From Aequorivita marisscotiae (GTDB taxonomy: Bacteria; Bacteroidota; Bacteroidia; Flavobacteriales; Flavobacteriaceae), in NCBI RefSeq assembly GCF_029814825.1, contig NZ_CP122379.1, positions 1,240,001-1,304,000 of the forward strand: a stretch of 64,000 bases of DNA. The letters run 5' to 3'. This document shows, piece after piece, positions 22,919-36,849 of the stretch (positions are counted from its first letter, which is position 1; each line of letters begins with the position of its first letter). Below the pieces are notes generated by a model. The model was given only the letters and a program-made list of their open reading frames with translations. It searched no databases and was not told where the DNA came from. Made by a program: the position numbers and the translations under genes.

Positions 22919-23851
22919 TTGAAGAAATTTTCGGCAGCTTCCACCTATAAAAATGACCGCCAAAGTGTGGTTACCATTGGCGCTTTTGACGGGGTCCATA
23001 TTGGCCATAACGCTATTTTAAAACGACTTGTAGCAACTGCCAAAAATGAAAATCTGGATGCTACCGTGCTCACATTTTTTCCGCACCCGCGAATGGTATT
23101 ACAGCAAAATTTAAATATCAAACTGCTAAACACTATTGAAGAACGCACGCAACTGCTAGAAAATACGGGGTTAAATAATTTAGTAATACATCCGTTTACG
23201 CATGCATTTTCGCGGTTAACAGCTCTGGAATATGTACGCGATATTTTAGTGAATAGCTTAAAGGCGAAAATAATAATTATTGGTTATGACCATCGTTTTG
23301 GCAGAAATAGAAATGCCGATATTGAAGATTTAAAAGAATACGGAAAAACGTATAATTTTGAAGTAGTAGAAATCTCGGCAAAGGAAATTGACGATGTAGC
23401 GGTTAGTTCCACAAAAATTAGAAGGGCTTTAGACCACGGCGACATTGAAACAGCTAATACCTATTTGGGTTATAATTTTATGATTACTGGCGAAGTAATT
23501 AAAGGAAAGGCCATAGGCCGAACCATAAACTATCCTACGGCAAATTTAAAATTGGCCGAAAAGTACAAATTGGTTCCAAAAAACGGCGTTTATATAATAC
23601 AATCAATAATTGATGGTACGAGGTATTTTGGAATTACAAGTATAGGTACAAACCCAACCGTTGGCGGAAAGGAGAAAACTATTGAAACACATTTTCTCGA
23701 TTTTAACCAAGATTTATACGGAACCCAAATTACTATTGAATTTTTAAAATTTATTCGCGACGAAGCAACTTTTGATTCTTTGGAATTGCTTCGACAGGAA
23801 ATTTTAAAAGATGAAAATTTCGCAAAAGCATATTTAAAGCAACGTGAATAA
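22919..23851 (+). CDS. ribF: bifunctional riboflavin kinase/FAD synthetase
   Basis: 310 residues starting at TTG 22919, since no ATG is available before the conserved GAFDGVHIGHNAILKRL. Residues 1-180 are the FAD synthetase (nucleotidyltransferase, GxFDGxHxGH and the ISSTKIR-like VSSTKIRRAL), and 190-305 the riboflavin kinase (KAIGRTINYPTANLKL). It converts riboflavin to FMN and then FAD. Start two bases after pth and an eight-base overlap with the HTTM gene suggest one operon. Confidence 0.93.
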   Translation: MKKFSAASTYKNDRQSVVTIGAFDGVHIGHNAILKRLVATAKNENLDATVLTFFPHPRMVLQQNLNIKLLNTIEERTQLLENTGLNNLVIHPFTHAFSRLTALEYVRDILVNSLKAKIIIIGYDHRFGRNRNADIEDLKEYGKTYNFEVVEISAKEIDDVAVSSTKIRRALDHGDIETANTYLGYNFMITGEVIKGKAIGRTINYPTANLKLAEKYKLVPKNGVYIIQSIIDGTRYFGITSIGTNPTVGGKEKTIETHFLDFNQDLYGTQITIEFLKFIRDEATFDSLELLRQEILKDENFAKAYLKQRE

Positions 23852-25178
23852 ATTTCTGTTTAGGCAAATAGACAATATAGGGCTTGTTCTTTTTAGGGCG
23901 GTATTTGGCTTTTTGATTGCTACAGAGGCTTTTGGTGCAATTTTTACGGGCTGGTTACGCCGCACCCTCGTAGAGCCACCCTTTACTTTTAATTTTATAG
24001 GTTTCGACTTTTTGCAGTATTTGCAAGGAGATTTTATGTACTATTATTTTGTGGTCATGGGCATCTTTGGCATTTTTGTGATGCTTGGATACAAATATCG
24101 CTTTAGCATGATTGCGTATGCTATTATGTGGACTGCCGTGTATTTAATGCAGAAATCTAGCTACAACAATCATTATTATTTAATGATGTTACTGTGTTGG
24201 ATTATGGCTCTGTTACCGGCCAATCGCTGGTTTTCCTTGGATGCTAAAATAAATCCCGAACTCAAAAATCCGGCTATGCCCCGATGGGTGCTTTTGGTGT
24301 TAATTTTTCAGGTTTGGATTGTTTACACGTACGCCTCGGTGGCAAAATTTTATCCAGATTGGCTCGACGCCTCTATGGCGGCACTATTAATGGAAGGCCG
24401 CAAACACTATTGGTTAATTGGCAGTTTGCTACAGGAAAACTGGGTGCATTGGGCCATTGCCTATACGGGTATTTTATTCGATTTGTTAATTGTGCCCTTA
24501 ATGCTTTGGAAGCGCACTCGCGTAATTGGTTTTGTGATTTCCGTATTTTTTCATTTGTTTAATTCTATTGTTTTTCAAATTGGCATTTTTCCATATATGT
24601 CAATCGCCTTTGCGCTTTTTTTCTTTTCTCCACAAATTCTTCAAAAACGCTTTCTTCCAAAGAAAGAACTTTATATTGGCAACGATGTGGTTGTTCCGAA
24701 GTATAAAAATTTACTCCTTGGAGCGTTTTCAATTTATTTTGCATTTCAACTGGCACTTCCACTGCGGCATTGGTTTTTTAAAGACGATGTGCTATGGACC
24801 GAAGAAGGCCACCGTTTAAGTTGGCGAATGATGCTCCGTGCAAAAAGCGGTTCGTTAACGGTTTATGTTGCCGACAAAAAAGACGGCGCAAAAGAATTTT
24901 ACAATTACAGTGTATTATTAGGTCGCAAGCAACAAGGTTCCGTTGCTACTAAGCCAGATATTATGTGGCAGCTCGCACAAAAAATTAAAGCCATTGAAGC
25001 AGAAAAAGGTCGTGATGTTGCTGTTTACATGGAAGCAAAGGTGCGGGTTAACCGCGGAAAATTCTATCCTTTTACCAATCCTGAAATAGATCTGGCAGCC
25101 GAGAAGTGGCATCCCTTTAAACACAGCGAGTGGATCTTGCCATCGCCCAAAGATTTGCACCGCCCTTTAAAAGATTAA
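23844..25178 (+). CDS. HTTM domain membrane protein (gamma-carboxylase-like)
   Basis: 444 residues from a GTG at 23844, eight bases inside ribF. It has about six transmembrane segments in the first 280 residues (including a conserved YNNHYYLMMLLCWIMALLP and YASVAKFYPDWL), then a soluble tail of about 160 residues. The hydrophobic part is the HTTM (horizontally transferred transmembrane) domain, which in animals is fused to vitamin K-dependent gamma-glutamyl carboxylase. A carboxylation function here is speculative. It lies between ribF and serS, and no vitamin K pathway gene is near. Confidence 0.8.
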   Translation: MNKFLFRQIDNIGLVLFRAVFGFLIATEAFGAIFTGWLRRTLVEPPFTFNFIGFDFLQYLQGDFMYYYFVVMGIFGIFVMLGYKYRFSMIAYAIMWTAVYLMQKSSYNNHYYLMMLLCWIMALLPANRWFSLDAKINPELKNPAMPRWVLLVLIFQVWIVYTYASVAKFYPDWLDASMAALLMEGRKHYWLIGSLLQENWVHWAIAYTGILFDLLIVPLMLWKRTRVIGFVISVFFHLFNSIVFQIGIFPYMSIAFALFFFSPQILQKRFLPKKELYIGNDVVVPKYKNLLLGAFSIYFAFQLALPLRHWFFKDDVLWTEEGHRLSWRMMLRAKSGSLTVYVADKKDGAKEFYNYSVLLGRKQQGSVATKPDIMWQLAQKIKAIEAEKGRDVAVYMEAKVRVNRGKFYPFTNPEIDLAAEKWHPFKHSEWILPSPKDLHRPLKD

Positions 25179-25799: not shown

Positions 25800-27071
25800 A
25801 TGCTACAAGTAACCGACATCCGTGAAAACAAAGAAAAATACAGTAAAGCCTTAGCCAAACGCGGCATAAACGCTGATTCTACTTTGGAAGAAGTTTTAAA
25901 AGCAGATGAAGAACGTCGCGCTTCTCAGGCACAATTAGATGAAGTTTTGGCGCAGAGCAATTCCTATTCAAAGGAAATTGGGAAACTTTTTAAATCCGGA
26001 GAAGTTCAAAAAGCAAACGAGTTAAAGGAAAAAACAGTTGAATTAAAAGAAGCATCTAAACAACTAAATGAGCAAATGCTTGCTGCTGCCGACAAATTGC
26101 AGCAATTGCTTTACACACTTCCTAACATTCCGAATGATTTGGTGCCTGCCGGAACCGACGAAAATGATAATGAGGAAGTTTTAAAAGTTGGTGAAATTCC
26201 CAAACTTATTGATGGCGCTATGCCGCATTGGGAGCTAGCTAAAAAATACGACCTCATAGATTTTGAATTAGGTGTAAAGGTTACGGGAGCTGGATTTCCG
26301 GTTTATAAAGGAAAAGGCGCAAGATTGCAACGCGCACTTATTACGTATTTTTTAGATAAAAATATCTCCGCTGGCTATACCGAATTTCAGGTGCCACTTT
26401 TGGTAAATGAAGCTTCGGGTTACGGAACAGGACAATTGCCTGATAAAGAAGGGCAAATGTACCATGTGGGAGTTGATGATCTTTACTTGATTCCAACTGC
26501 TGAGGTTCCTATTACAAATATGTTTCGGGGCGAATTGTTAAACAACGCCGATCTGCCTATTACTTGCACCGGATACACACCCTGTTTTAGAAGAGAAGCT
26601 GGTAGTTATGGCGCGCATGTTCGCGGACTTAACCGTTTGCATCAATTTGACAAAGTGGAAATAGTTCGTATTGAGCATCCCGAAAATTCTTACAAAGCGC
26701 TGGACGGCATGGTAGAACATGTTAAAGATATTTTAGGCGAATTAAAATTGCCGTACCGAATTCTGCGTCTTTGCGGGGGCGATTTAGGTTTTACTTCGGC
26801 GTTAACCTATGATTTTGAAGTGTTTTCAACAGCGCAGGATCGTTGGTTGGAAATTTCTTCAGTATCAAATTTTGAGACTTTTCAAGCCAATCGGTTAAAA
26901 CTTCGCTTTAAAGATACAGACGGGAAAAATAAACTTGTGCACACCTTAAACGGAAGTGCCTTAGCACTACCAAGAGTTTTAGCGGGAATATTGGAAAACT
27001 ACCAAACTGCAGACGGTATTAAAGTGCCGGAAGTGTTGGTGCCCTATTGCGGCTTCGATTTTATAGACTAA
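25800..27071 (+). CDS. serS: seryl-tRNA synthetase
   Basis: 423 residues of class II SerRS: an N-terminal long coiled-coil arm (about 25-105) that binds the tRNA extra arm, then motif 1 around YTEFQVPLLVNEASGYGTGQLP, motif 2 TPCFRREAGSYGAHVRGLNRLHQFDKVE and motif 3 in the C-terminal NGSALALPRVLAGILENYQ. It charges serine onto tRNA-Ser. A TTTG/TAACTTAG pair lies at 25766-25777 as a weak promoter candidate. The gene is followed by a strong bidirectional terminator. Confidence 0.96.
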   Translation: MLQVTDIRENKEKYSKALAKRGINADSTLEEVLKADEERRASQAQLDEVLAQSNSYSKEIGKLFKSGEVQKANELKEKTVELKEASKQLNEQMLAAADKLQQLLYTLPNIPNDLVPAGTDENDNEEVLKVGEIPKLIDGAMPHWELAKKYDLIDFELGVKVTGAGFPVYKGKGARLQRALITYFLDKNISAGYTEFQVPLLVNEASGYGTGQLPDKEGQMYHVGVDDLYLIPTAEVPITNMFRGELLNNADLPITCTGYTPCFRREAGSYGAHVRGLNRLHQFDKVEIVRIEHPENSYKALDGMVEHVKDILGELKLPYRILRLCGGDLGFTSALTYDFEVFSTAQDRWLEISSVSNFETFQANRLKLRFKDTDGKNKLVHTLNGSALALPRVLAGILENYQTADGIKVPEVLVPYCGFDFID

Positions 27072-27113
27072 TTTATTTACCGTGTATTTGCGGTTTAATT
27101 TCACTTAAAATAA

Positions 27114-27146
27114 AAACCCCAAAGATTTTTAAGATCTTTGGGGTTT
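27114..27146. terminator. bidirectional terminator between serS and the PiT gene
   Basis: AAACCCCAAAGAT and ATCTTTGGGGTTT are a perfect 13-bp inverted repeat around a seven-base loop, with A/T runs on both sides, placed where two convergent genes end. Confidence 0.88.
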
Positions 27147-27173
27147 GTCGTTTACAGCGGGTTTGGGTTTTTA

Positions 27174-29417
27174 CTATTTCTTTTTATAACTGTTGTAATA
27201 TTCCTCCATTAAACTCATCAACGCTTTCACTAAATCTTTAGTTTCCAACAACAGGCTAAAATACAATGTGGTATTTTTAGGACTGGATTCTTCGGTTCGC
27301 GTACGGGCTATTTGCTTTTCAATTTTATTGGAAAGGCTTTCAAAGATTTCATCCTTATTTTCAATTACACTTCCAATTCGTTCAAATTCTTTTTTATTGA
27401 ATATGTCTTCAATTTCATTAAGGAATTGTTCCAAGTGCCTGTCTATTTCCTGTAAATCTTTAATTTGATTAAATCGAAGTGCCTTGTGATTGTTGTTTAC
27501 ATGCTTATAACTAGCTTTTGAAATAAATTCCAACGATTGCACTACATCTGTTAAATACCCCAGAATTACAATGTAGAAGTTGCTTCCGCGAACACTGGTA
27601 TCATCAAGATTTTTAATAAAATAGAAAATATTATCGCGCAGTTCTTCAACTTCATCGTTCAGTTTTTTAACTCCTTTTTTGCTCTTTTTTAATTTTTTGG
27701 TATCCTGTTTTGCAAGACCACGGAGCATGTCGGTATATATTTTATTTGATCGTGAAACTACATTGCTAATATTTTCAGCACTTTCCTGAATAATACCTTG
27801 TACGGTTTTACTTTCGGTTTTCTTTAAACCGCTTTTATCCATTTTTAGCTTAACTTTATTTTTATGCGAAACATAATTTCTAACCAATAATAAAATTGCT
27901 AACAATAAAAGCACAGCTATCATTGCGCCTCTTCCTATGTAAATTAAATAGGTTAGAGTACCGGCAGCTGCAAAGGCTACAAAAGCTGTAAAGAACCATC
28001 CGCCAATTACATTAAGTACGCCCGCCACTCTGTAAACGGCACTTTCCCGGCCCCAAGCTCTATCGGCTAAAGACGTACCCATGGCTACCATAAACGTAAC
28101 ATATGTGGTAGAAAGCGGCAATTTCATAGAAGTTGCCGAAGCAATTAATATACCTGCTACTACGAGGTTTATGGAAGCTCTAATCATATCAAAAGCGGGT
28201 AGCTCGTATGTTTTGTGTTTTGGAAGATCAATAACCGGCTTTTCAAAACGTTTGTCTATTTTCTCTTGGAGCGATTTTGGAAGAACAAACTCAAAATACG
28301 TTGCTACTTGTGTGCTGGATTTTACCAGAAAACGAGACAGCATATTTGGGCTGAACTTTTCGTGGCCTTCGCCTTGACGCGCTAAATCTATTTCTGTATC
28401 AGACACGGTTCTTGCTTTTTTAGAAAACCACAATGTAAGTACCATAATAGCTCCTGCTGCAAAGAGTAAGTAGGGCTCGGCGGGCACTGCGTTTTCGAGG
28501 CTAGCCATACTGTATTGGGTTGCGGCAACACCAGAGGCAGACCAGTCTATATAACTGTGATAGGCTGCCATTGGCACACCTATAAAATTCACCAAGTCGT
28601 TTCCGGCAAAGGCCAGTGCCAAACTAAAACTTCCCACTGCAATTACTATTATTAAAATGCTCTTTTTAAAGATCATCATAAACAATTGCGAAAATATTGT
28701 CCACACAACAAAACTACTTCCTACTAAAAATAAGGTGTTGTTATCTACAATTCCCTTAAAGCTACCGTAGAATGGGGTGCCTTTTAATCCTTTCATGAAT
28801 ATGAAATAACTTATTGCAGTAAGCGCAAGCCCGCCAAAAATAGCGCCGAAATATTTCATCTTTTGCTCAATATGAAAGGTGAAAATAAGTCGGGACAGAT
28901 ATTGTACAATGGCCCCAATTGTAAAGGCGATGACGACCGAGAGAATAATTCCTATAATAATTTCAACTGCTTTTTCGGTATTTATATATTTAGTTAGTGC
29001 CGAAAATGTTTCGCCATCGGTGTGGCTAATTTTTATTAATGCCATAATTACGGCGGCACCTAAAAGTTCAAAAACTATAGATACAGTAGTAGAAGTAGGT
29101 AAGCCAATAGTATTGAAAAAGTCAAGCAGTAAGATATCGGTTATCATTACCGCCATAAAAATTATCATAATTTCATCGAAGTAAAATTCGCTGGGAACAA
29201 AGATGCCCTTTCGGGCTACCTCCATCATTCCGCTGGAAAAAACGGCTCCTATAAAAATACCCAAACTGGCAATAATCATGATGTATTTGTAAGGGATTGC
29301 TTTGGAGCCTACCGCAGAGTTTAGGAAATTTACTGCGTCGTTGCTAACGCCCACAACCAAATCTGCTATGGCCAAGGCCACCAGTGCAACTATCATTAAT
29401 AAATATAGATTTTCCAT
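27174..29417 (-). CDS. PiT-family phosphate transporter fused to DUF47/PhoU-like domain
   Basis: 747 residues. Residues 1-515 hold about 12 transmembrane helices with the duplicated PiT signature (SNDAVNFLNSAVGSKAI at the start and AGNDLVNFIGVPMAAYHS, plus SATSMKLPLSTTYVTFMVAMG later). Residues 545-747 are a soluble helical domain (IIQESAENISNVVSRSNKIYTDML) like DUF47, a PhoU-like partner that is a separate gene next to pit in many bacteria and is fused here. The protein takes up phosphate with a cation across the inner membrane. It lies 79 bp downstream of the porin, with its own -7-like element and an 11-bp-phased repeat box. Confidence 0.9.
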   Translation of the reverse strand: MENLYLLMIVALVALAIADLVVGVSNDAVNFLNSAVGSKAIPYKYIMIIASLGIFIGAVFSSGMMEVARKGIFVPSEFYFDEIMIIFMAVMITDILLLDFFNTIGLPTSTTVSIVFELLGAAVIMALIKISHTDGETFSALTKYINTEKAVEIIIGIILSVVIAFTIGAIVQYLSRLIFTFHIEQKMKYFGAIFGGLALTAISYFIFMKGLKGTPFYGSFKGIVDNNTLFLVGSSFVVWTIFSQLFMMIFKKSILIIVIAVGSFSLALAFAGNDLVNFIGVPMAAYHSYIDWSASGVAATQYSMASLENAVPAEPYLLFAAGAIMVLTLWFSKKARTVSDTEIDLARQGEGHEKFSPNMLSRFLVKSSTQVATYFEFVLPKSLQEKIDKRFEKPVIDLPKHKTYELPAFDMIRASINLVVAGILIASATSMKLPLSTTYVTFMVAMGTSLADRAWGRESAVYRVAGVLNVIGGWFFTAFVAFAAAGTLTYLIYIGRGAMIAVLLLLAILLLVRNYVSHKNKVKLKMDKSGLKKTESKTVQGIIQESAENISNVVSRSNKIYTDMLRGLAKQDTKKLKKSKKGVKKLNDEVEELRDNIFYFIKNLDDTSVRGSNFYIVILGYLTDVVQSLEFISKASYKHVNNNHKALRFNQIKDLQEIDRHLEQFLNEIEDIFNKKEFERIGSVIENKDEIFESLSNKIEKQIARTRTEESSPKNTTLYFSLLLETKDLVKALMSLMEEYYNSYKKK

Positions 29418-29465
29418 TTTAATTTTAAATTAAGTTGGTGCAAATTTCCTACATAAAATAGGATT

Positions 29466-29483
29466 TAATGTTACCAAATTGTT
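29466..29483 (-). promoter_or_regulatory. Pho-box-like direct repeat upstream of the PiT gene
   Basis: On the minus strand AACAATT-TGGT-AACATTA: two 7-mers spaced by four bases. A TTTGCACC promoter end (29437-29444) starts exactly 21 bases downstream, as for the porin gene. The geometry is that of PhoB/PhoP boxes. Confidence 0.55.
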
Positions 29484-29496
29484 ATCTGTAATTAGC

Positions 29497-30696
29497 TTAA
29501 AAATGAAGGTCGAAACCCAATCGATATTCTATAAAATCGCGGTTACTTCCTTCGGTTGCATACGTTAAATCTGTTTGTATTTTTAAATTGTGATTTACAA
29601 TATATTTAGACCCACCAATTGTGTAAAAATTATGAGTTTCATTTAACGATAACGTCGTAGAAGGTTTGATGGTTGTAAATCTTCCAGCTATTTCCCATTT
29701 GGAAGGAAAAACATAACCACCTTGAAAATTTATACCTTCTCCTGTATACACCTCGTAGTCGGTAGTTGAGCCATCGCTATTTGTGGCAATTGGATTTTTG
29801 GCATCGCGATAACTGTATTCACCCATTAGTGAAAATCCGTTGTATTTAAACAATGCATCTACCAAAACAGTACTTATATTAGTCTTGTAAAACCCAAGGT
29901 CGTTGCGCATGTAACTACCTTGGTTACTCCGTGTTTTTACTGCGTCTACATTTAAATCGTAGGTAGCGCCAATAGATAGCTTTGGTTTTTCTTCGCGATA
30001 GAGGTCGCCGCCCATATAATCACCTTTTTTTGTGAATGCTCCAAAAGGCAAAACCTCAACTCGGCCAGTATATTCTATCCCGCCAAGGTTTCCTGTAATT
30101 ACATTTCTACCTTCGCCTTGCGAAACTGCAAATGCCTCTCTAATAATGAAGTTATTGAAGGGTTGAAATTCATGACGCAGTTGAAGTCCTATTTCTCTAC
30201 CCAAGTTAAATACTTTTGAAAGTTTTGAGCGATCAACAAATTGTAATTTGGCCGATGAGGTAGCATCTTCACGATTACCGGGTAGTTTGGTTTGTCCTGC
30301 CCAAAGTTCTACATTATTGTAAACTTCCCACATGACTACTGCGTCATAAATGATGCGAGGTGCATTGCCAGTAAATTCTGAAGCCCCTGCTATGTCTGAA
30401 TTGGAAAGCCCAATTTGCAATTTATAGCGAAGTTTTGGCGAGTAGGCAAAGCCGCTAAATTTTAACCGTGCTTTGCGGATTAAAAAATCGTGTTCTGGTT
30501 TGCCAAATTTATCACCTTCGTAATCCCAGGTAGAGATAGTTCGAAATTGAATTCGCGGGGCAAACTTTACACTAAATGTACTGTCTTTTCCTACAAATTT
30601 GAGCATTCCATCTCCAAATTTTGGGGCGCTAATTTGAGCTTGAGATACGCAAACAACGAACAATAAGCTAATTACGAATGTAGCTTTTGATAACAT
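29497..30696 (-). CDS. OprO/OprP-type phosphate porin
   Basis: 399 residues with a signal peptide (KATFVISLLFVVCVSQAQ), then strands with alternating hydrophobic residues and a conserved N-terminal stretch PKFGDGMLKFVGKDSTFSVKFAPRIQFR, ending DFIEYRLGFDLHF with the terminal Phe of outer-membrane barrels. The phosphate-selective porin family of Pseudomonas OprP is the best match; polyphosphate or phosphate is the expected solute. It is immediately upstream of the PiT transporter in the same direction, which supports a phosphate role. A Pho-box-like repeat lies upstream. Confidence 0.85.
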   Translation of the reverse strand: MLSKATFVISLLFVVCVSQAQISAPKFGDGMLKFVGKDSTFSVKFAPRIQFRTISTWDYEGDKFGKPEHDFLIRKARLKFSGFAYSPKLRYKLQIGLSNSDIAGASEFTGNAPRIIYDAVVMWEVYNNVELWAGQTKLPGNREDATSSAKLQFVDRSKLSKVFNLGREIGLQLRHEFQPFNNFIIREAFAVSQGEGRNVITGNLGGIEYTGRVEVLPFGAFTKKGDYMGGDLYREEKPKLSIGATYDLNVDAVKTRSNQGSYMRNDLGFYKTNISTVLVDALFKYNGFSLMGEYSYRDAKNPIATNSDGSTTDYEVYTGEGINFQGGYVFPSKWEIAGRFTTIKPSTTLSLNETHNFYTIGGSKYIVNHNLKIQTDLTYATEGSNRDFIEYRLGFDLHF

Positions 30697-30751
30697 TGAA
30701 TAAATCGTTTATAGTTTTTGTCGGTGCAAAGAACTTAATTTAACTGCAATT

Positions 30752-30769
30752 TAATGTTTCCGTAATGTT
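30752..30769 (-). promoter_or_regulatory. Pho-box-like direct repeat upstream of the porin gene
   Basis: On the minus strand AACATTA-CGGA-AACATTA, identical 7-mers with a four-base spacer. TTTGCACC (30723-30730) begins 21 bases downstream, the same spacing as at the PiT gene. Confidence 0.62.
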
Positions 30770-30801
30770 AAGCGTGTCTATATTTCGAATTTTATTTTAT
30801 A

Positions 30802-30832
30802 TGAAAAAAGGCTGTCCAGATTGAACAGCCTT
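30802..30832 (-). terminator. intrinsic terminator hairpin in front of the porin gene
   Basis: AAGGCTGT and ACAGCCTT form a perfect 8-bp stem around a nine-base loop. On the minus strand it is followed by six T. No annotated gene ends here, so it may stop a short RNA transcribed from upstream of the porin. Confidence 0.55.
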
Positions 30833-31013
30833 GTTTGAAAATCTAGTCGACAAAAACTAAACGATTTCAAAAATACCCTATAAAAATAGGCTTTTACAAA
30901 TAAAATAAATGTATTTCGGGTGTATATGAAGCGAAGTTTATCAAATCATTAAATTGAAAATTTTTTTAAACGCCATTAATTTCAAACAACTAAAAATCAA
31001 GTAGTTATAGCTT

Positions 31014-31053
31014 TAATGTTAAGTTAATGTTTCTAAATTGTTTCTTATGTGTT
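31014..31053 (+). promoter_or_regulatory. four-fold 11-bp-phased repeat upstream of the small secreted protein
   Basis: TAATGTT, TAATGTT, AATTGTT and ATGTGTT start at 31014, 31025, 31036 and 31047, exactly 11 bp apart, with TGTT common to all. It resembles two adjacent Pho boxes but read in the opposite orientation relative to the downstream gene compared with the other units. Confidence 0.6.
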
Positions 31054-31060
31054 AATTCTT

Positions 31061-31068
31061 TAAATTTG
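31061..31068 (+). promoter_or_regulatory. -7 element for the small secreted protein
   Basis: TAAATTTG is a perfect TAnnTTTG; its TTTG begins 11 bases after the last repeat of the box and 30 bases before the ATG. Confidence 0.65.
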
Positions 31069-31097
31069 ATTGTTATAAATAGTAAAAATTCAACCCT

Positions 31098-31433
31098 ATG
31101 AAAAAGATAATCAGTTTATTACTTGTTGTATTTATATCAACTGTTGTGGTTGCTCAAAATAAAAATGAATATGTAATTCACGGTAATTTAATAAAGGCTA
31201 CAATTTACAACCAAGATGGAAGTTTGGCACAAACTGGCTATTACACGAAGGATAACAAACCTACGGGCCAATGGATAAGCTACGACTTGCAAGGTAATAA
31301 AACAGCAGTTGCAACTTATAAAGATGGGGAAAAAGTGGGAACATGGTTTTTTTATCAAGATGATATTTTACAAGAAGTTTCGTTTGTAGCCTCGCGAATT
31401 GCAAAGGTTACCACCCTTAAAATTGAAAACTAA
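31098..31433 (+). CDS. small secreted MORN/YwqK-like protein
   Basis: 111 residues with a signal peptide (KKIISLLLVVFISTVVVAQ). The mature part has three successive strand pairs of the pattern Y-x-G-x-x-x-G-x-W-x-x-Y (AQTGYYTKDNKPTGQWISYD, ATYKDGEKVGTWFFYQD), which match MORN-like repeats of the YwqK family. Such proteins are sometimes automatically named toxin-antitoxin component or nicotinate-nucleotide adenylyltransferase, with no support here. It is divergent from the porin, and the large repeat box upstream suggests joint control with the phosphate genes. Confidence 0.7.
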   Translation: MKKIISLLLVVFISTVVVAQNKNEYVIHGNLIKATIYNQDGSLAQTGYYTKDNKPTGQWISYDLQGNKTAVATYKDGEKVGTWFFYQDDILQEVSFVASRIAKVTTLKIEN

Positions 31434-31470
31434 TTTTAAATTTTCTTATTTTAAGAATGCTATAAACAAA

Positions 31471-31500
31471 AAAAGGTCTCTAATTTTAGAGACCCTTTTT
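31471..31500. terminator. bidirectional terminator between the small secreted protein and the beta-helix lipoprotein
   Basis: GGTCTCT and AGAGACC form a perfect 7-bp stem around AATTTT, extended by A/T runs on both sides, where two genes converge. Confidence 0.85.
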
Positions 31501-31522
31501 GTTAACGTAGACTACGTTAGTA

Positions 31523-32536
31523 TTAGTTGCTAATCCAATTCCATCCAGTAATATCTACTTGAGTACCGTTAAACACATCGTCTTCTGGCGAAGTTAATGG
31601 TGTGTTATCTACAATTACATTTTCAATCGGGCCATCATCTTTCATATCTACATTTTTAGAGTATCCACTTAAATGGATATTTGTAAAAGTTGCACCAGAT
31701 TGTTTTTTAAACTGAAGCGCCGTTCCGTCAACAGTTGAAACCGCTGTAAAGTTTATAACTTTTGGGTTGCCGTTGTCGCCATCGGCTTCAATAGCTGTTG
31801 AAAATGGTTTGGTGTGGCTTACATACGTATTGGTAATGGTGCCATTCCAGCCTTCTGTCCAGTCTACTGAGTCATCTTCGTTGTTTTCAAAGTAAAGGTT
31901 TGATGCCGAAACAGTTCCGCCAAAAAACTCAATTCCGTCATCGGCACCATCAATAACGGCAACATTCGAGATTGAAGTTCCCGAACCTACCGCGTAAAGG
32001 GTAAGCCCGTTGTATTGCGATTCTGAATTTATTTGAGCACCCGCGCCACGAATAATTAAGTAGTTAATACTTCCCGAGTTATCGGTGTCATCAGTACCGC
32101 CGTAAATTAGGCCGCCTACTTCGGCGGTTACATTTACGCCTTCGGTGGTTGTTGCTTTTCCGCAAAGTAATAATCCGCCCCAGTCACCAGCTGAGTTGCC
32201 TTCTGAGCGCATAATAACAGGGTTTGAAGAAGTGCCTTGAATATCAATCTTTCCTCCTTGTTCTACGGCAATATATCGGTCTGTTCCATTTTGAGAAACT
32301 ATTACAGTTCCTGCGGGAATGGTAAGTTTAACACCAGATTTTACCAAATACGGTCCAGTAACCGAATATTGAAGGTTTGCATCCAAAATTCTATCAGATG
32401 TTAAAGCGCCATTAAGTTCGGTGTTTTCTACCGGCTCTTCTTCAATTGGAGTAAAGTCGTCATCACTGCTACATCCTACAAAGAATATCGCGTTTATTGC
32501 GGCAAGTGTAATTGCAAATTTCTTAAAGTTTTTCAT
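31523..32536 (-). CDS. surface lipoprotein with right-handed beta-helix
   Basis: 337 residues with a lipoprotein signal (FAITLAAINAIFFVGCSSDDD; the SDDD/acidic stretch after Cys is typical of surface export in Bacteroidota). The mature part is repeated short strands with Asn/Gly/Ser turns (SVTGPYLVKSGVKLTIPAGTVIV, GTSISNVAVIDGADDGIEFFGGTVSASNLYFENNEDDSVDWTEGW), a pattern of parallel beta-helix proteins of the pectin-lyase-like fold. No catalytic triad was seen. It follows the TonB receptor after 33 bp, the place of a partner surface lipoprotein, and the pair may bind and import one ligand. Confidence 0.72.
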   Translation of the reverse strand: MKNFKKFAITLAAINAIFFVGCSSDDDFTPIEEEPVENTELNGALTSDRILDANLQYSVTGPYLVKSGVKLTIPAGTVIVSQNGTDRYIAVEQGGKIDIQGTSSNPVIMRSEGNSAGDWGGLLLCGKATTTEGVNVTAEVGGLIYGGTDDTDNSGSINYLIIRGAGAQINSESQYNGLTLYAVGSGTSISNVAVIDGADDGIEFFGGTVSASNLYFENNEDDSVDWTEGWNGTITNTYVSHTKPFSTAIEADGDNGNPKVINFTAVSTVDGTALQFKKQSGATFTNIHLSGYSKNVDMKDDGPIENVIVDNTPLTSPEDDVFNGTQVDITGWNWISN

Positions 32537-32569
32537 TTTTTGGTTTTAATTTAAATTAGACATTTGTTG

Positions 32570-35344
32570 TTAAAAAGTATAGTTGATATTTAAGCCTAAG
32601 CGCGTACCACGGGTGTAAGAGAGAACCGTTTCTTTAGTTTCAATATTTGTAGTACTCGGTTTTATTAGTTGGGTTCTTTTTATTTGGGGGTTTAAAATAT
32701 TTTTTCCTGAAACACCTATTTTTAAATTTTTGGTTAGTTTTTTCTTCAGAATTAAATCGAGGGTTACAACGCCATTTTCCACGATGGCATCGTTGTAATT
32801 TACATCGCCAGACGATTGGAACTCGGGGGCGCCCAAGGCGTAAATTCTATCGGAGGCATAATTGGCAGAAAGTGTTGCCTCAAAGGGATTGTTTGTATTG
32901 GTATTAAAATTTAAAGCTCCGTTTACTATCCAATCTGAAGCTCCTTGTAGGCCGGTTTCAGTTAATCCTTTGTACCGAAATGTTCTTACAAAATTACCTG
33001 CGTTGTCATACACTTCTTTTAAATCTTGTTTATGCCACATTCTTGAAGCATTTACATTTAGTTTTAAATTTGGTTGTTCGTCGCCCGAAATTAAATTTAT
33101 ACGGCTTTCAACTTCAAAACCGTACACAGTTGCTTCATCGCCTGCATTGAAATATGAAAATACTCCTGCCGAACCTCTGTCTTGCACTTTATTAATAGGG
33201 TCTTCAATTAACTTGTAAAATCCGGTAAGTGACAGCAATTGATCGCGCGAAGGAAAAAACTCCCACTTTAAATCGAAGTTTCTGTTTAAGGAAGCCTCAA
33301 TATTTGGGTTTCCACGGGTAACTTGCCCAACTGGCGAAACATATTCAAAAGGAGCAATTTCTTTAAATTCGGGAAGTGTAGTTGTATAGCTATTAGCAAA
33401 ACGGATGCTGTGCTTTTCGCTCAAATTGTATTTTATATTAAACGATGGAAATATTCGGTTGTAATCTTTTGATACATCACCAATGCGTCCTGCGTAGTTA
33501 TTTACATCCCAATTCACAAAAATATTATCGGTCTGAAATCGCAATCCGGCTTGTAAGGTGAAGTTGCCACGAACACCCGTAAAATTGGCATAACCCGCAG
33601 TGCTATTTAATTCACCGCGATAAAAATCGGGCGACAGCGAGTTTCGTTTTAAAAGTCCATTGTTGAAGTTTTGTGACGTAAAAATTTCTGAAATATCATC
33701 AATCGATGAAGGGTTTACAGCGTTGGTGATGGTTTCTTCTACCCCAAAAAATTGCGAACCAAAATCGCGGCTTTTATTTCTGTGAGTAGCTCCTGCATTA
33801 ATATAAAATTGATCTTTTTCTTGGTCAATAATTTTAAATACACCATTTAAGCGCGCATTGTATTCAATACCTTCAATTTTTTGAACACTTTTGCGCTGTT
33901 GAAAACCACCGGTGCGTCCAAGTTGGACAATTTGATCGTTAAAATTAACTTCGTTTCTAATACGGTTAGGCTCGTCTGCGCTTAAATAATTGTAGCCAGC
34001 GGCCCACTGCACTTCATTTTTTTCACCAAAGTTGTGCTCACCACTAAGTTGCGTTACAGAGAGCAAAGTCTTCTTTAAATTTTGGTCTCGAATAAATTGT
34101 GATAGGCCTTCTTCGGGATCGGTTTCTTCGTAAATTACGGCTTCGCCAGCGCGGCCACCCTCAAAAACTTCGTCTTCAATCTTATTAATTAATAGTGAGT
34201 TGAACTTTAAATTGTTGTTGTCATTTGCTCTAAACCTAAGGTGAAATAAGCCAGAAGTTGCTACTTCTTTTTTCCAATTTATTGCATCGGGAATCATGTC
34301 GTCTAAATAGTTTGAGCGGTATTGGGCAAAGGCGCCTTTGCTATATTCAAAGTTTTCAGACTGCCCTGCAGTAAATAAAAGGCTAAGCTTATCGCCAAGC
34401 CGCTTCCCAACACTTAAAGAAAACGATTTGTTTATAGGGAAATCTTCAATTTGTGGGTTCCAGCTTTGTGCTACAATAGCCCTACTTGTAGCAGTATTTT
34501 TGTTGTAAAAACCAAATGAAACATCTCGGTAATTTGGCGATACTTTAAAATTGTTAAATACACCATTGCTTGTAACATTGGTATTTATTGAAGTGCTTGC
34601 GCTGGCCGATAAAAGTGAGCGTTTTGAAAGTTGTTTAGTATTTATATCAATATTTCCCGAAGCTTGATCTGCCGATAGTTTTGGCGAGGTAGTTTTACTT
34701 ATATCAATACTTTCAATTAAACGGGTAGGAAAAAGGTTGAGATTTATGTTTTTTCTTTCAATATTATCTGAAGGAATAGGAAGACCGTTTAAAGTGGTGG
34801 ATAAATACCTATCCCCTAGGCCGCGTACAAAAACATCGCCATTACCGTCGGTTTTTGAAACACCCGAAATTTTGGTTGTGGCACCAGCAGCATTTGAAAC
34901 TCCTAGTTTAGACAATTGTTCGGCGCCAATACTTTCTATAATAGTTGTAGCTTTCTTTTGCTCAAGCAATAATGCTACTTCACTTTCTCTACGTACCTGC
35001 GTTTTAATTATTACTTCATCGAGGGCAGCGGCACTCGCTTTCATGGGTACATCTATATTAGTAACATTGTTTGCAGTAACTTCTACATGGGGGATTTCAA
35101 CCGTTTCGTATCCCACATAGCTAAATACTAAGTTGTAAATTCCGGGTTTTAAATTCCCAATTTTATATAAGCCGTCAAAATCTGAAGTTACGCCTATTGT
35201 AGTTCCTTTAATAAAAACGTTTGCAAAAGGTAGTGGTTCATTATTGTATTGCGTATCGGTAAGTTTTCCCGCAATTGTTCCATTTTGCTGCGCAAAGGTT
35301 ATTGCGGTAACAAAGTAAAAAGTTAGTTTTAAAATTGTTTTCAT
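32570..35344 (-). CDS. TonB-dependent receptor
   Basis: 924 residues: signal peptide (KTILKLTFYFVTAITFAQ), a CarboxypepD_reg-like Ig domain (about 22-105, GTIAGKLTDTQYNNEPLPFANVFIKG), a plug (about 120-240, with VFVRGLGDRYLSTTLNGLPIPS) and a barrel of about 22 strands ending LGLNINYTF. No SusD-like gene follows, so this is not a SusC/SusD pair; the partner is the beta-helix lipoprotein. It takes a ligand across the outer membrane using TonB energy. The Pho-box-like repeat upstream suggests a phosphorus-containing ligand, which is inference. Confidence 0.88.
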   Translation of the reverse strand: MKTILKLTFYFVTAITFAQQNGTIAGKLTDTQYNNEPLPFANVFIKGTTIGVTSDFDGLYKIGNLKPGIYNLVFSYVGYETVEIPHVEVTANNVTNIDVPMKASAAALDEVIIKTQVRRESEVALLLEQKKATTIIESIGAEQLSKLGVSNAAGATTKISGVSKTDGNGDVFVRGLGDRYLSTTLNGLPIPSDNIERKNINLNLFPTRLIESIDISKTTSPKLSADQASGNIDINTKQLSKRSLLSASASTSINTNVTSNGVFNNFKVSPNYRDVSFGFYNKNTATSRAIVAQSWNPQIEDFPINKSFSLSVGKRLGDKLSLLFTAGQSENFEYSKGAFAQYRSNYLDDMIPDAINWKKEVATSGLFHLRFRANDNNNLKFNSLLINKIEDEVFEGGRAGEAVIYEETDPEEGLSQFIRDQNLKKTLLSVTQLSGEHNFGEKNEVQWAAGYNYLSADEPNRIRNEVNFNDQIVQLGRTGGFQQRKSVQKIEGIEYNARLNGVFKIIDQEKDQFYINAGATHRNKSRDFGSQFFGVEETITNAVNPSSIDDISEIFTSQNFNNGLLKRNSLSPDFYRGELNSTAGYANFTGVRGNFTLQAGLRFQTDNIFVNWDVNNYAGRIGDVSKDYNRIFPSFNIKYNLSEKHSIRFANSYTTTLPEFKEIAPFEYVSPVGQVTRGNPNIEASLNRNFDLKWEFFPSRDQLLSLTGFYKLIEDPINKVQDRGSAGVFSYFNAGDEATVYGFEVESRINLISGDEQPNLKLNVNASRMWHKQDLKEVYDNAGNFVRTFRYKGLTETGLQGASDWIVNGALNFNTNTNNPFEATLSANYASDRIYALGAPEFQSSGDVNYNDAIVENGVVTLDLILKKKLTKNLKIGVSGKNILNPQIKRTQLIKPSTTNIETKETVLSYTRGTRLGLNINYTF

Positions 35345-35382
35345 TTTTGTCGTTTGATTTGTTGGTGCAAAGAAACCAGGCG

Positions 35383-35400
35383 TGTGTAAAAATTGTGTTA
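35383..35400 (-). promoter_or_regulatory. Pho-box-like direct repeat upstream of the TonB receptor
   Basis: On the minus strand TAACACA-ATTT-TTACACA, two near-identical 7-mers with a four-base spacer. TTTGCACC (35364-35371) begins 11 bases downstream, one helical turn less than at the porin and PiT genes. Confidence 0.5.
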
Positions 35401-35418
35401 ATTGGCCATTACCAATTA
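35399..35418. promoter_or_regulatory. inverted repeat between the TonB receptor and dgt
   Basis: TAATTGG and CCAATTA flank a six-base centre. It overlaps the end of the Pho-like box by two bases and lies in the only control region shared by the two divergent genes, so it may be a second operator. Confidence 0.35.
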
Positions 35419-35517
35419 GTCAAGTTAGGGTTAGCTATATGTTAAGTCAATTGAAAAAAAATGATTGAATTGCCTCCTGAAAATAGTATCTTGCCTACCA
35501 AATTTTTACATATTATG

Positions 35518-36849
35518 ATGCAATGGGAACAGCTGCTTTCACTAAAAAAGCAGGGAGATAAAAACAAAAGACTTAGGATTGAAGAAGACGAAACTCGGTT
35601 GGGGTTTGAGGTAGACTACGACCGTGTAATTTTTTCGGCGGCATTCCGAAGTTTACAGGACAAGACGCAGGTTATTCCATTGTCTAAAACCTCCTTTGTA
35701 CATACGCGCTTAACCCATAGTTTGGAAGTATCGGTCGTAGGCCGCTCTTTGGGCCGAACGGTGGGTAAAGCAATTTTAAAAAAGCATCCCCAATTGCAAA
35801 ATGTGCACGGGTTTCAATTTAACGATTTTGGAGCCATTGTTGCGGCGGCGGCGCTTGCACATGATATAGGCAACCCTCCTTTTGGACACAGTGGTGAAAA
35901 AGCAATTGGCGATTACTTTTTAAACGGAAACGGCAAACGTTTTAAAGATAAACTCACCGAAAAACAATATCAGGATTTAGTTGCTTTTGAAGGCAATGCC
36001 AATGGATTTAAAATTTTAACGCAGTCTAAAAATGGAGTGGAAGGAGGTCTTCGGCTTACTTTTGCCACGTTGGGCGCATTTATGAAATACCCAAAACAAT
36101 CGTTGCCTCACAAACCCACCACACACGTTGCCGATAAAAAATTTGGCGTTTTTCAAAGCGACACTACTTTCTTTGAGGAAGTAGTTTCAGACTTAGGACT
36201 TTTAAATCAAGGAAACGGTAGGTATTCACGCCATCCGTTAACGTACTTGGTCGAAGCTGCCGATGATATTTGCTACACCTTAATAGATTTTGAAGACGGA
36301 ATAAACCTGGGGCTAATAGATGAAGACATTGCCTTGGAATATTTAATAAACTTAGTACGCGCTACATTAAAGAAAGATGTTTATTCGGCGTTAAAAACAT
36401 CGCAGGATAGATTGGCCTATTTGCGAGCGCTAGCCATAAACACTTTAATTTCAGAAGCTGCGGAAATTTTTATTGATAATGAAGAAGAAATTTTAAAAGG
36501 CACTTTTTCTGAAGCGTTACTCGACAAAAGTAAGTACAAAGTGCAAATTGCCGATATTATAAAAATTAGCATTGAAAAAGTGTACCAAAGCGCCGAAGTT
36601 ACCGAAAAGGAAATTGCTGGCTACAATATATTAACGACCCTGTTGGAAAATTTTACAACAGCATTTGAAAATCTGAGCAATAATAGCGAACGACAATACG
36701 ATTTACTTTTACTTCGAACAATAGATTTTCAAGTAGATACTTCGGTTTCTGTGTATAATTACTTAATGGAATGTTGCAATTATATTTCGCGATTAACGGA
36801 TGGCAATGCGCTTCAAATTTTTCAGAAAATAAAAGGAGAGATGCACTAA
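35518..36849 (+). CDS. dgt: dGTP triphosphohydrolase
   Basis: 443 residues from ATG 35518 (MQWEQLLSLKKQGDKNKRLRIEEDETRLGF); M19 is adjacent and the earlier frame start at 35461 adds an unrelated 19 residues. HD-domain motifs: H in FVHTRLTHSLEVSVVGRSLG, the HD pair in ALAHDIGNPPFGHSGEKAI, and the Asp in VEAADDICYTLIDFEDG. It hydrolyses dGTP to deoxyguanosine and triphosphate. It is divergent from the TonB receptor. Confidence 0.92.
   Translation: MQWEQLLSLKKQGDKNKRLRIEEDETRLGFEVDYDRVIFSAAFRSLQDKTQVIPLSKTSFVHTRLTHSLEVSVVGRSLGRTVGKAILKKHPQLQNVHGFQFNDFGAIVAAAALAHDIGNPPFGHSGEKAIGDYFLNGNGKRFKDKLTEKQYQDLVAFEGNANGFKILTQSKNGVEGGLRLTFATLGAFMKYPKQSLPHKPTTHVADKKFGVFQSDTTFFEEVVSDLGLLNQGNGRYSRHPLTYLVEAADDICYTLIDFEDGINLGLIDEDIALEYLINLVRATLKKDVYSALKTSQDRLAYLRALAINTLISEAAEIFIDNEEEILKGTFSEALLDKSKYKVQIADIIKISIEKVYQSAEVTEKEIAGYNILTTLLENFTTAFENLSNNSERQYDLLLLRTIDFQVDTSVSVYNYLMECCNYISRLTDGNALQIFQKIKGEMH

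Follow-up and report, generated by a model that had tools for sequence, protein, structure and literature searches.

MicF and MicC are short, structured small RNAs that repress porins through seed pairing with the porin mRNA leader. The boxes bound by PhoB of Escherichia coli and PhoP of Bacillus are direct repeats with an 11-base-pair (bp) period, and the Bacillus PhoP half-site is TTAACA-like. In Bacteroidota, to our knowledge, few small-RNA targets have been established. Small RNAs have been tied to PhoB regulons elsewhere: Salmonella STnc1860 is co-transcribed with pst (PMC5001712) and Sinorhizobium meliloti candidates carry predicted PhoB sites (PMC2573895), with no porin target reported in the accessible parts of either source. 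Within flavobacteria, Rfp18 of Flavobacterium psychrophilum is a conserved structured small RNA with a deletion mutant, and its third stem-loop pairs with metalloprotease mRNAs according to the accessible part of the report (PMC9723704). The pst promoter is bound by PhoB in Bacteroides fragilis, and the accessible part of that study gives no consensus for the box (PMC3547664). Among open PMC papers, we found none on a Pho-linked small RNA of Bacteroidota. Here we describe an apparently undescribed small RNA gene, common to a set of flavobacteria, in a phosphate-uptake locus of Aequorivita marisscotiae. The window analyzed is a 64,000-nucleotide (nt) stretch (positions 1,240,001 to 1,304,000 of NZ_CP122379.1), part of a single-contig genome of 3.45 Mb.

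The small RNA gene, of ~90 nt, lies on the minus strand at 30804..30893, both ends being predicted from sequence. Its product would fold into a 5′ hairpin, a hairpin carrying the seed and an intrinsic terminator (30804..30832, minus strand). By sequence, the gene has an independent promoter as well as this terminator, which stands on the minus strand between the divergent genes for a porin and a MORN-like protein and serves neither. The surrounding 404-bp intergenic stretch is matched in 25 of the 28 genomes of the genus, that of the window included, and the alignment reveals the terminator and a near-invariant core, AAATCGTTTAGTTTTTGTCGACTAGATTTTC (30837..30867, minus strand). The core has 22 contiguous invariant columns in the 25 genus sequences and holds 13 of the 14 columns that are invariant across 68 family sequences. 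The stretch 30801-30895 folds with a z of -5.5, and compensatory changes affect 7 of 22 consensus pairs in the genus alignment (2 in the 5′ hairpin, 5 in the terminator) and 9 of 13 pairs over the 68 family sequences, all in the terminator. In minimum-energy folds, 78 of 84 loci have the core within a hairpin that counts 7 pairs or more. Rfam gave no match on the small RNA (26800-36000 scanned, E up to 1); it returned two weak mir-971 matches at 27093-27168. We discarded a small peptide as the product, since the window's small RNA contains no ATG.

The core finds its complement in the leader of the next gene, which encodes a 399-amino-acid (aa) protein of the phosphate-selective porin O/P family (29497..30696, minus strand; PF07396 at 1.4e-13, the single match in the whole genome). 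Here this leader contains the reverse complement of the core, CGACAAAAACTA-TA-AACGATTT, and the putative target site CGACAAAAACTATAAACGATTT (30702..30723, minus strand) adjoins the predicted transcription start. At -23.3 kcal/mol, the duplex between the seed hairpin and the porin leader ranks first among 54 leaders of the window, the next reaching -14.4, and 500 shuffled seeds attain at best -17.5. Duplex energies of the whole small RNA do not discriminate among the 54 window leaders (porin 6th, TonB receptor 5th). The genome holds 87 CGACAAAAA sites (149 in the backward control); besides those of the porin and the TonB receptor, only three more lie within 60 nt before an open frame, in a reading that covered 75 of the 87 sites plus the last loci.

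We further investigated this pairing in 85 distinct loci, retained after filters and duplicate removal; individual loci and genomes are given L and G numbers. A complementary site is present in the next gene's leader in 74 of them, and all 73 next-gene proteins scanned match Porin_O_P (L106, with a short frame, was left out). Summed over own pairs, complementarity totals 996, against a mean of 909 and a maximum of 948 when partners are permuted, a score that 0 of 5000 permutations reach. The base after GACAAAAACT varies in step on both sides: among the 74 loci, a T in the small RNA faces an A in the target in 50 and an A faces a T in 19, with 3 mismatches and 2 cases of indel or wobble, so that the base matches in 69. 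On a tree of 71 porins with 140 branches, 6 small-RNA changes and 9 target changes were placed, with 4 branches bearing changes on both sides (P 1.2e-4). The seed and the porin leader thus appear, from this comparison, to have co-evolved, and conserved, co-varying complementarity to an mRNA leader is one mark of a trans-acting, base-pairing small RNA.

The original prediction had described direct repeats of 7-mers in four control regions, and we confirmed all four at 29466-29483, 30752-30769, 31014-31053 and 35383-35400; the small RNA and its complementarity to the leader of the porin had gone unnoticed there. The repeats read AACAATT-TGGT-AACATTA at the PiT gene (29483-29466), AACATTA-CGGA-AACATTA at the porin (30769-30752) and TAACACA-ATTT-TTACACA at the TonB receptor (35400-35383), and TTTGCACC follows them, as predicted, by 21, 21 and 11 nt. 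The TonB 7-mer, correctly spaced at 11 as written, starts one base before the AACATTA register; in the common register its gap is 10, one 11-bp step short of 21. The stretch at 31053-31014 in fact comprises four ACA repeats at 11-bp steps. All four are minus-strand boxes, even the one that had been assigned to the plus-strand MORN-like gene.

In this register, the PiT box (29466..29485) consists of two 11-bp phased half-sites, with gaps of 32 and 21 nt to the -7 TTTG at 29444-29441, and the half-sites of the porin box (30752..30771) keep the same gaps to the TTTG at 30730-30727. Six tandem 11-bp half-sites form the TonB-receptor box (35382..35445), the last lying 10 nt from the TTTG at 35371-35368. 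The genes behind these boxes, all on the minus strand, encode, besides the porin, a PiT-type phosphate transporter (27174..29417, 747 aa, PF01384 at 2.5e-29) and a TonB-dependent receptor (32570..35344, 924 aa, with CarbopepD_reg_2, Plug and OMP_b-brl_3), 3′ of which lies a lipoprotein gene (31523..32536) whose product has no Pfam match at 0.001 and owes the label beta-helix to the original prediction. Within the three intergenic pieces, 596 bp in all, the minus strand has 7 occurrences of a relaxed box pattern, [AT][TA]ACA-N6-[AT][TA]ACA, where 500 shuffles give 0.16 on average and never more than 2. Over the whole window and both strands, a strict pattern occurs 5 times against a mean of 0.7 (maximum 3 in 100); the relaxed one, with 11 occurrences against a mean of 5.6 and a maximum of 12, is therefore not enriched across the window as a whole.

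The boxes and their register are conserved among relatives. The PiT box is kept in 22 of the 22 genus loci where PiT was found (25 searched). The six-half-site TonB array was seen by eye in 19 of 28 printed upstream stretches, the other nine being one internal fragment and eight stretches from more distant paralogues; eleven of the 19 precede a receptor only 38-39% identical. A small weight matrix served to score half-sites at each distance from the -7 TTTG. Across 74 porin promoters, using a matrix trained on PiT and TonB sites only, the mean score peaks at 10, 21 and 32 nt (3.6, 4.5 and 2.1; elsewhere -2.6 to -13.6). Across 43 PiT promoters of named loci, using one trained on TonB sites only, it peaks at 21 and 32 nt (4.0 and 2.5; elsewhere -2.3 to -14.4). 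The porin and PiT peaks and the TonB box, at 10 nt, fall in one register, and the steps are therefore 11 bp apart. In a spacing test on the porin, the best pair spaced by 11 bp reaches 12.2 within the set L029-L053 and 11.8 in the loci outside it, while other spacings from 7 to 15 score at most 5.2; taken singly, porin half-sites reach p <= 0.05 against shuffles in 46 of 51 and 22 of 23 loci. Direct-repeat half-sites with an 11-bp period before a promoter, a feature of PhoB/PhoP-type regulons, are thus present here. The boxes resemble those of E. coli and Bacillus in repeat type and period, and those of Bacillus PhoP in the TTAACA-like half-site; unlike them, they stand at fixed steps before the Bacteroidota -7 TTTG and comprise two to six half-sites.

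The small RNA promoter falls in the register of the PiT and porin genes. Its half-sites (30922..30952, minus strand), at 43, 32 and 21 nt from the -7 TTTG at 30900-30897, are weak in the window and clear in the family average: across the promoters of 65 loci, mean scores stand out at 21, 32 and 43 nt (1.4, -0.9 and 0.1, against -3.5 to -13), with 20 of the 85 loci yielding no small RNA -7 under the rule used and a few possibly misplaced.

Altogether, these comparisons make it likely that a PhoB-type regulon includes a small RNA which pairs in trans with the porin leader and represses porin translation. A PhoB-type response regulator would bind the tandem TTAACA-like 11-bp direct repeats located 10, 21, 32 or 43 nt before the -7 TTTG, and would activate the PiT gene (pst in some relatives), the OprP-like porin gene, the genes for the TonB receptor and lipoprotein, and the ~90-nt small RNA. 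The latter would fold into the three elements described above, with the seed 5′-AAAUCGUUUAGUUUUUGUCG-3′ in the loop and arm of the middle hairpin. Acting in trans, this seed would pair with the leader of the porin mRNA (CGACAAAAACUA..AACGAUUU), from the predicted transcription start to a few bases before the AUG. Pairing would most likely block ribosome entry and lower porin synthesis, so that the porin and its repressor would be induced together and the porin level damped, in an incoherent feed-forward loop. On balance, we lean toward a new Flavobacteriaceae small RNA family that sits in a phosphate-uptake locus, is co-activated with the porin, covers nearly the whole leader with its seed and builds such a loop into the Pho response. 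It resembles MicF and MicC in being short and structured and in pairing its seed with a porin leader; it differs in belonging to another phylum, in being encoded beside its target and in pairing with almost the whole of a very short predicted leader, the likeness being one of form and mode of pairing. Rfp18 is likewise set apart by description, through its metalloprotease targets; our core pattern matched no F. psychrophilum record in the named genome collection, whose inclusion of that species is unchecked.

The sign of the regulation could be the opposite. Paired with the porin leader, the small RNA might activate it by stabilizing the short mRNA's 5′ end or holding it open, which would give a coherent loop for phosphate uptake. 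The box type and register common to the small RNA and the porin agree with this, as does the position of the pairing over the predicted mRNA 5′ end, where protection from decay is possible. However, the pairing extends to a few bases from the AUG, and pairing that close to the AUG usually blocks initiation. We regard activation as unlikely and retain repression.

Several observations weigh against repression of the porin within a PhoB regulon. The seed hairpin has no compensatory changes, its pairs hardly varying, and single sequences fold just modestly better than shuffles do (mean z -1.2 over 84 loci). L049, L143 and L085 break the covarying base. The small RNA of L031 (G025) is intact while its target site is degenerate, and G041 (L110) has the small RNA with no site on its strand of 19 kb nor at three porin matches. 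The small RNA's half-sites are weaker than those of the porin (13 of 60 and 10 of 23 loci singly at p 0.05) and degenerate in A. marisscotiae. Most single loci being non-significant, co-regulation of the small RNA with the porin has support at the family level, where the register is clear on average, and less support in this strain. Finally, consensus box patterns are not clearly enriched genome-wide (5 against 3 in backward controls; 23 against 29), and the evidence for the boxes is positional and comparative, not one of genome-wide enrichment.

This lack of clear enrichment also agrees with a reading in which an OmpR-family regulator other than PhoB, one with TTAACA-like repeats, would act through the boxes and respond to a different signal. 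The genome has matches to four full-length OmpR-type regulators, none reaching the PhoB cut-off: the best PhoB-like regulator, encoded at contig positions 697408-698061 and followed by a 347-aa frame that we take to be its kinase, scores 213 bits against the 296 of TIGR02154. In Flavobacterium johnsoniae, OprP (Fjoh_0542) is not induced at phosphate depletion (-1.3, p 0.25), as given in the accessible part of that study (PMC8115612). The same source reports strong induction, in the phoBR cluster, of the TonB receptor Fjoh_0545 and the IPR011050 lipoprotein Fjoh_0546, a pair comparable to that of the window, Fjoh_0545 being likened to our receptor by its identical Pfam set (PMC8115612). The porin, the receptor/lipoprotein pair and the MORN-like protein had been predicted as uncharacterized; given the induction of Fjoh_0545 and Fjoh_0546, this does not wholly hold for the pair (PMC8115612). 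From what is accessible, the locus-number order of the PUSIV/phoBR cluster, oprP-phoR-phoB-TonB receptor-FII lipoprotein, resembles the order here from porin to lipoprotein and TonB receptor; the main text of that study contains neither "motif" nor "small RNA" (0 occurrences each; PMC8115612).

The genes marked by the boxes are themselves phosphate uptake genes: PiT, an OprO/P-type porin and, in relatives, porin and pstS. Behind the targeted porin of G001, G015 and G018 stands pstS (PF12849), then come two more frames, presumably pstC and pstA. PF12849 is over its cut-off in 5 of the 28 genus genomes, with no match over it in A. marisscotiae. Among 23 named loci, a ~750-aa PiT frame directly follows the porin in 13, most others ending before it in the stretches examined. 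An Na/Pi cotransporter follows in L119 (PF02690), and by eye L139 and L160 have frames that resemble it. The pstS genes of L251 and L252 have no convincing box before them, the one match in L252 lying within the gene. Taken together, PiT, the porin and the TonB receptor/lipoprotein pair form one well-supported phosphate-type regulon, we infer PhoB to be its regulator, and another OmpR-type regulator seems quite unlikely. In L253, L254 and L255, porin-pstS replaces porin-PiT while the small RNA and the porin position stay the same, which may represent an exchange of phosphate uptake systems.

Eleven of the 85 loci, L031 and L110 among them, lack an adjacent exact site. Four of these, L123, L133, L163 and L170, come from stretches ending before the target region, and L229 keeps the site through a G-U change. 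In L109 (G127), L137, L142 and, more weakly, L176, a porin located about 0.9-3.4 kb from the small RNA carries the site, as does a non-adjacent porin of G104 (L107, which is not one of the 85). Complementarity thus persists in five genomes that have the small RNA and the porin apart, and the small RNA should therefore act in trans. This bears on the view that the conserved stretch belongs to the porin transcript, as its cis leader or attenuator, the complementarity being an alternative structure with no separate RNA. Core and target do lie in tandem, at distances of 118-165 nt in the adjacent cases listed, but a terminator and the porin promoter, with its own box and TTTG, stand between them. 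Where adjacency is lost, opposite-strand open frames intervene in L137, L142, L176 and G127 (L173), and G104, whose intervening DNA is unread, keeps the site as well; we consider a cis element very improbable. As separate observations, another porin subtype (FKWDNGFKL) occupies the porin place in L031 (G025) and L254 (G015), and an opposite-strand frame of ~209 aa follows the small RNA in L142, L163, L173 and L176. We take this frame to be carbonic-anhydrase-like, and assume a SulP-like transporter in L176 as well.

The original prediction had extended a PhoB/PhoP-like regulon to four genes; PiT, the porin and the TonB receptor with its lipoprotein withstand comparison, and the MORN-like gene does not. 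The latter (31098..31433, plus strand), divergent from the small RNA, encodes a small secreted protein with a weak PF07661 match (0.0018, below cut-off), and a similar divergent protein was seen by eye in 13 of 23 named loci. The array of four 11-bp half-sites at 31014..31055, of uncertain function, adjoins its -7 TAAATTTG (31061-31068) and lies mainly on its non-coding, minus strand. At the MORN-like promoters of 29 loci, mean scores on that strand peak at 0, 9, 31 and 42 nt, the sense strand showing a weaker peak at 32; under a strict rule, 32 of 80 loci yielded the gene and 29 a TTTG. We rejected it as an activated member on box orientation. Repression by the array is possible, for which the Bacillus tag promoters offer a parallel. 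The least probable of the readings considered, box activation of all four genes with the conserved stretch as extended promoter DNA, draws on the box adjoining the MORN-like promoter and on the weak sense peak, but the stronger half-sites are reversed relative to that promoter, the box is kept in L043, where the alignment shows no MORN-like start, and promoter DNA leaves both the terminator covariation and the seed-target covariation unexplained.

The TonB receptor was considered as a second target of the small RNA. A candidate site, CGACAAAAA, lies over its start codon (35344..35352, minus strand) and is conserved in the genus, its duplex ranking second of the 54 leaders. This energy is close to background, the site is absent in four receptors read outside the genus, and G022 keeps it although it lacks the small RNA; we consider this target possible but doubtful. 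The receptor leader AAATCAAACGACAAAAATG is nearly invariant in the genus, with a GG variant in L194 and L196, and L203 (G022) retains it too. The G022 locus has lost the small RNA together with the porin and the MORN-like gene, while the receptor, a lipoprotein and PiT remain. This joint loss is in keeping with the proposed regulation and concerns this locus, the rest of G022 not having been searched for a porin. Elsewhere in the window, 23844-25178 encodes a bacterial protein with HTTM and vitamin K-dependent gamma-carboxylase-like lumenal domains (PF05090, PF22777).

We then examined the distribution of the small RNA. An RNA model, R1, matches 56 of 299 Flavobacteriaceae genomes at E <= 1e-3. 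Of 32 matches read individually, 19 are without the core and resemble plain terminators, and we therefore count 43 genomes: 30 with loci L082-L111 (L090 having a variant core) and 13 more that were read. This is a lower bound, as G185 was missed by R1 yet matched by a narrower core pattern (a match that was not read), so that a real core is present in at least 43 of the 299 genomes. The core pattern found, in the named genome collection, 65 stretches whose titles give Flavobacteriaceae or Flavobacterium sp., other genera (Aequorivita, Christiangramia, Zhouia and Ulvibacter among those named) or, in two cases, Bacteroidetes bacterium; we take the remaining genera to be Flavobacteriaceae. No named Flavobacterium species of that collection was matched, only two metagenome-assembled genomes of Flavobacterium sp. 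The narrower pattern matches 4 of 76 Flavobacteriaceae genomes, with 0 in controls, and 0 of 319 genomes from 15 other families of the order.

For the Flavobacteriaceae group, these results offer a positional rule for Pho-type promoters, with half-sites 10, 21, 32 and 43 nt from TTTG. The seed-target pair, backed by covariation across many genera, is directly testable in isolates. If true, it would tie post-transcriptional control to phosphate uptake in a large, mostly marine bacterial group.

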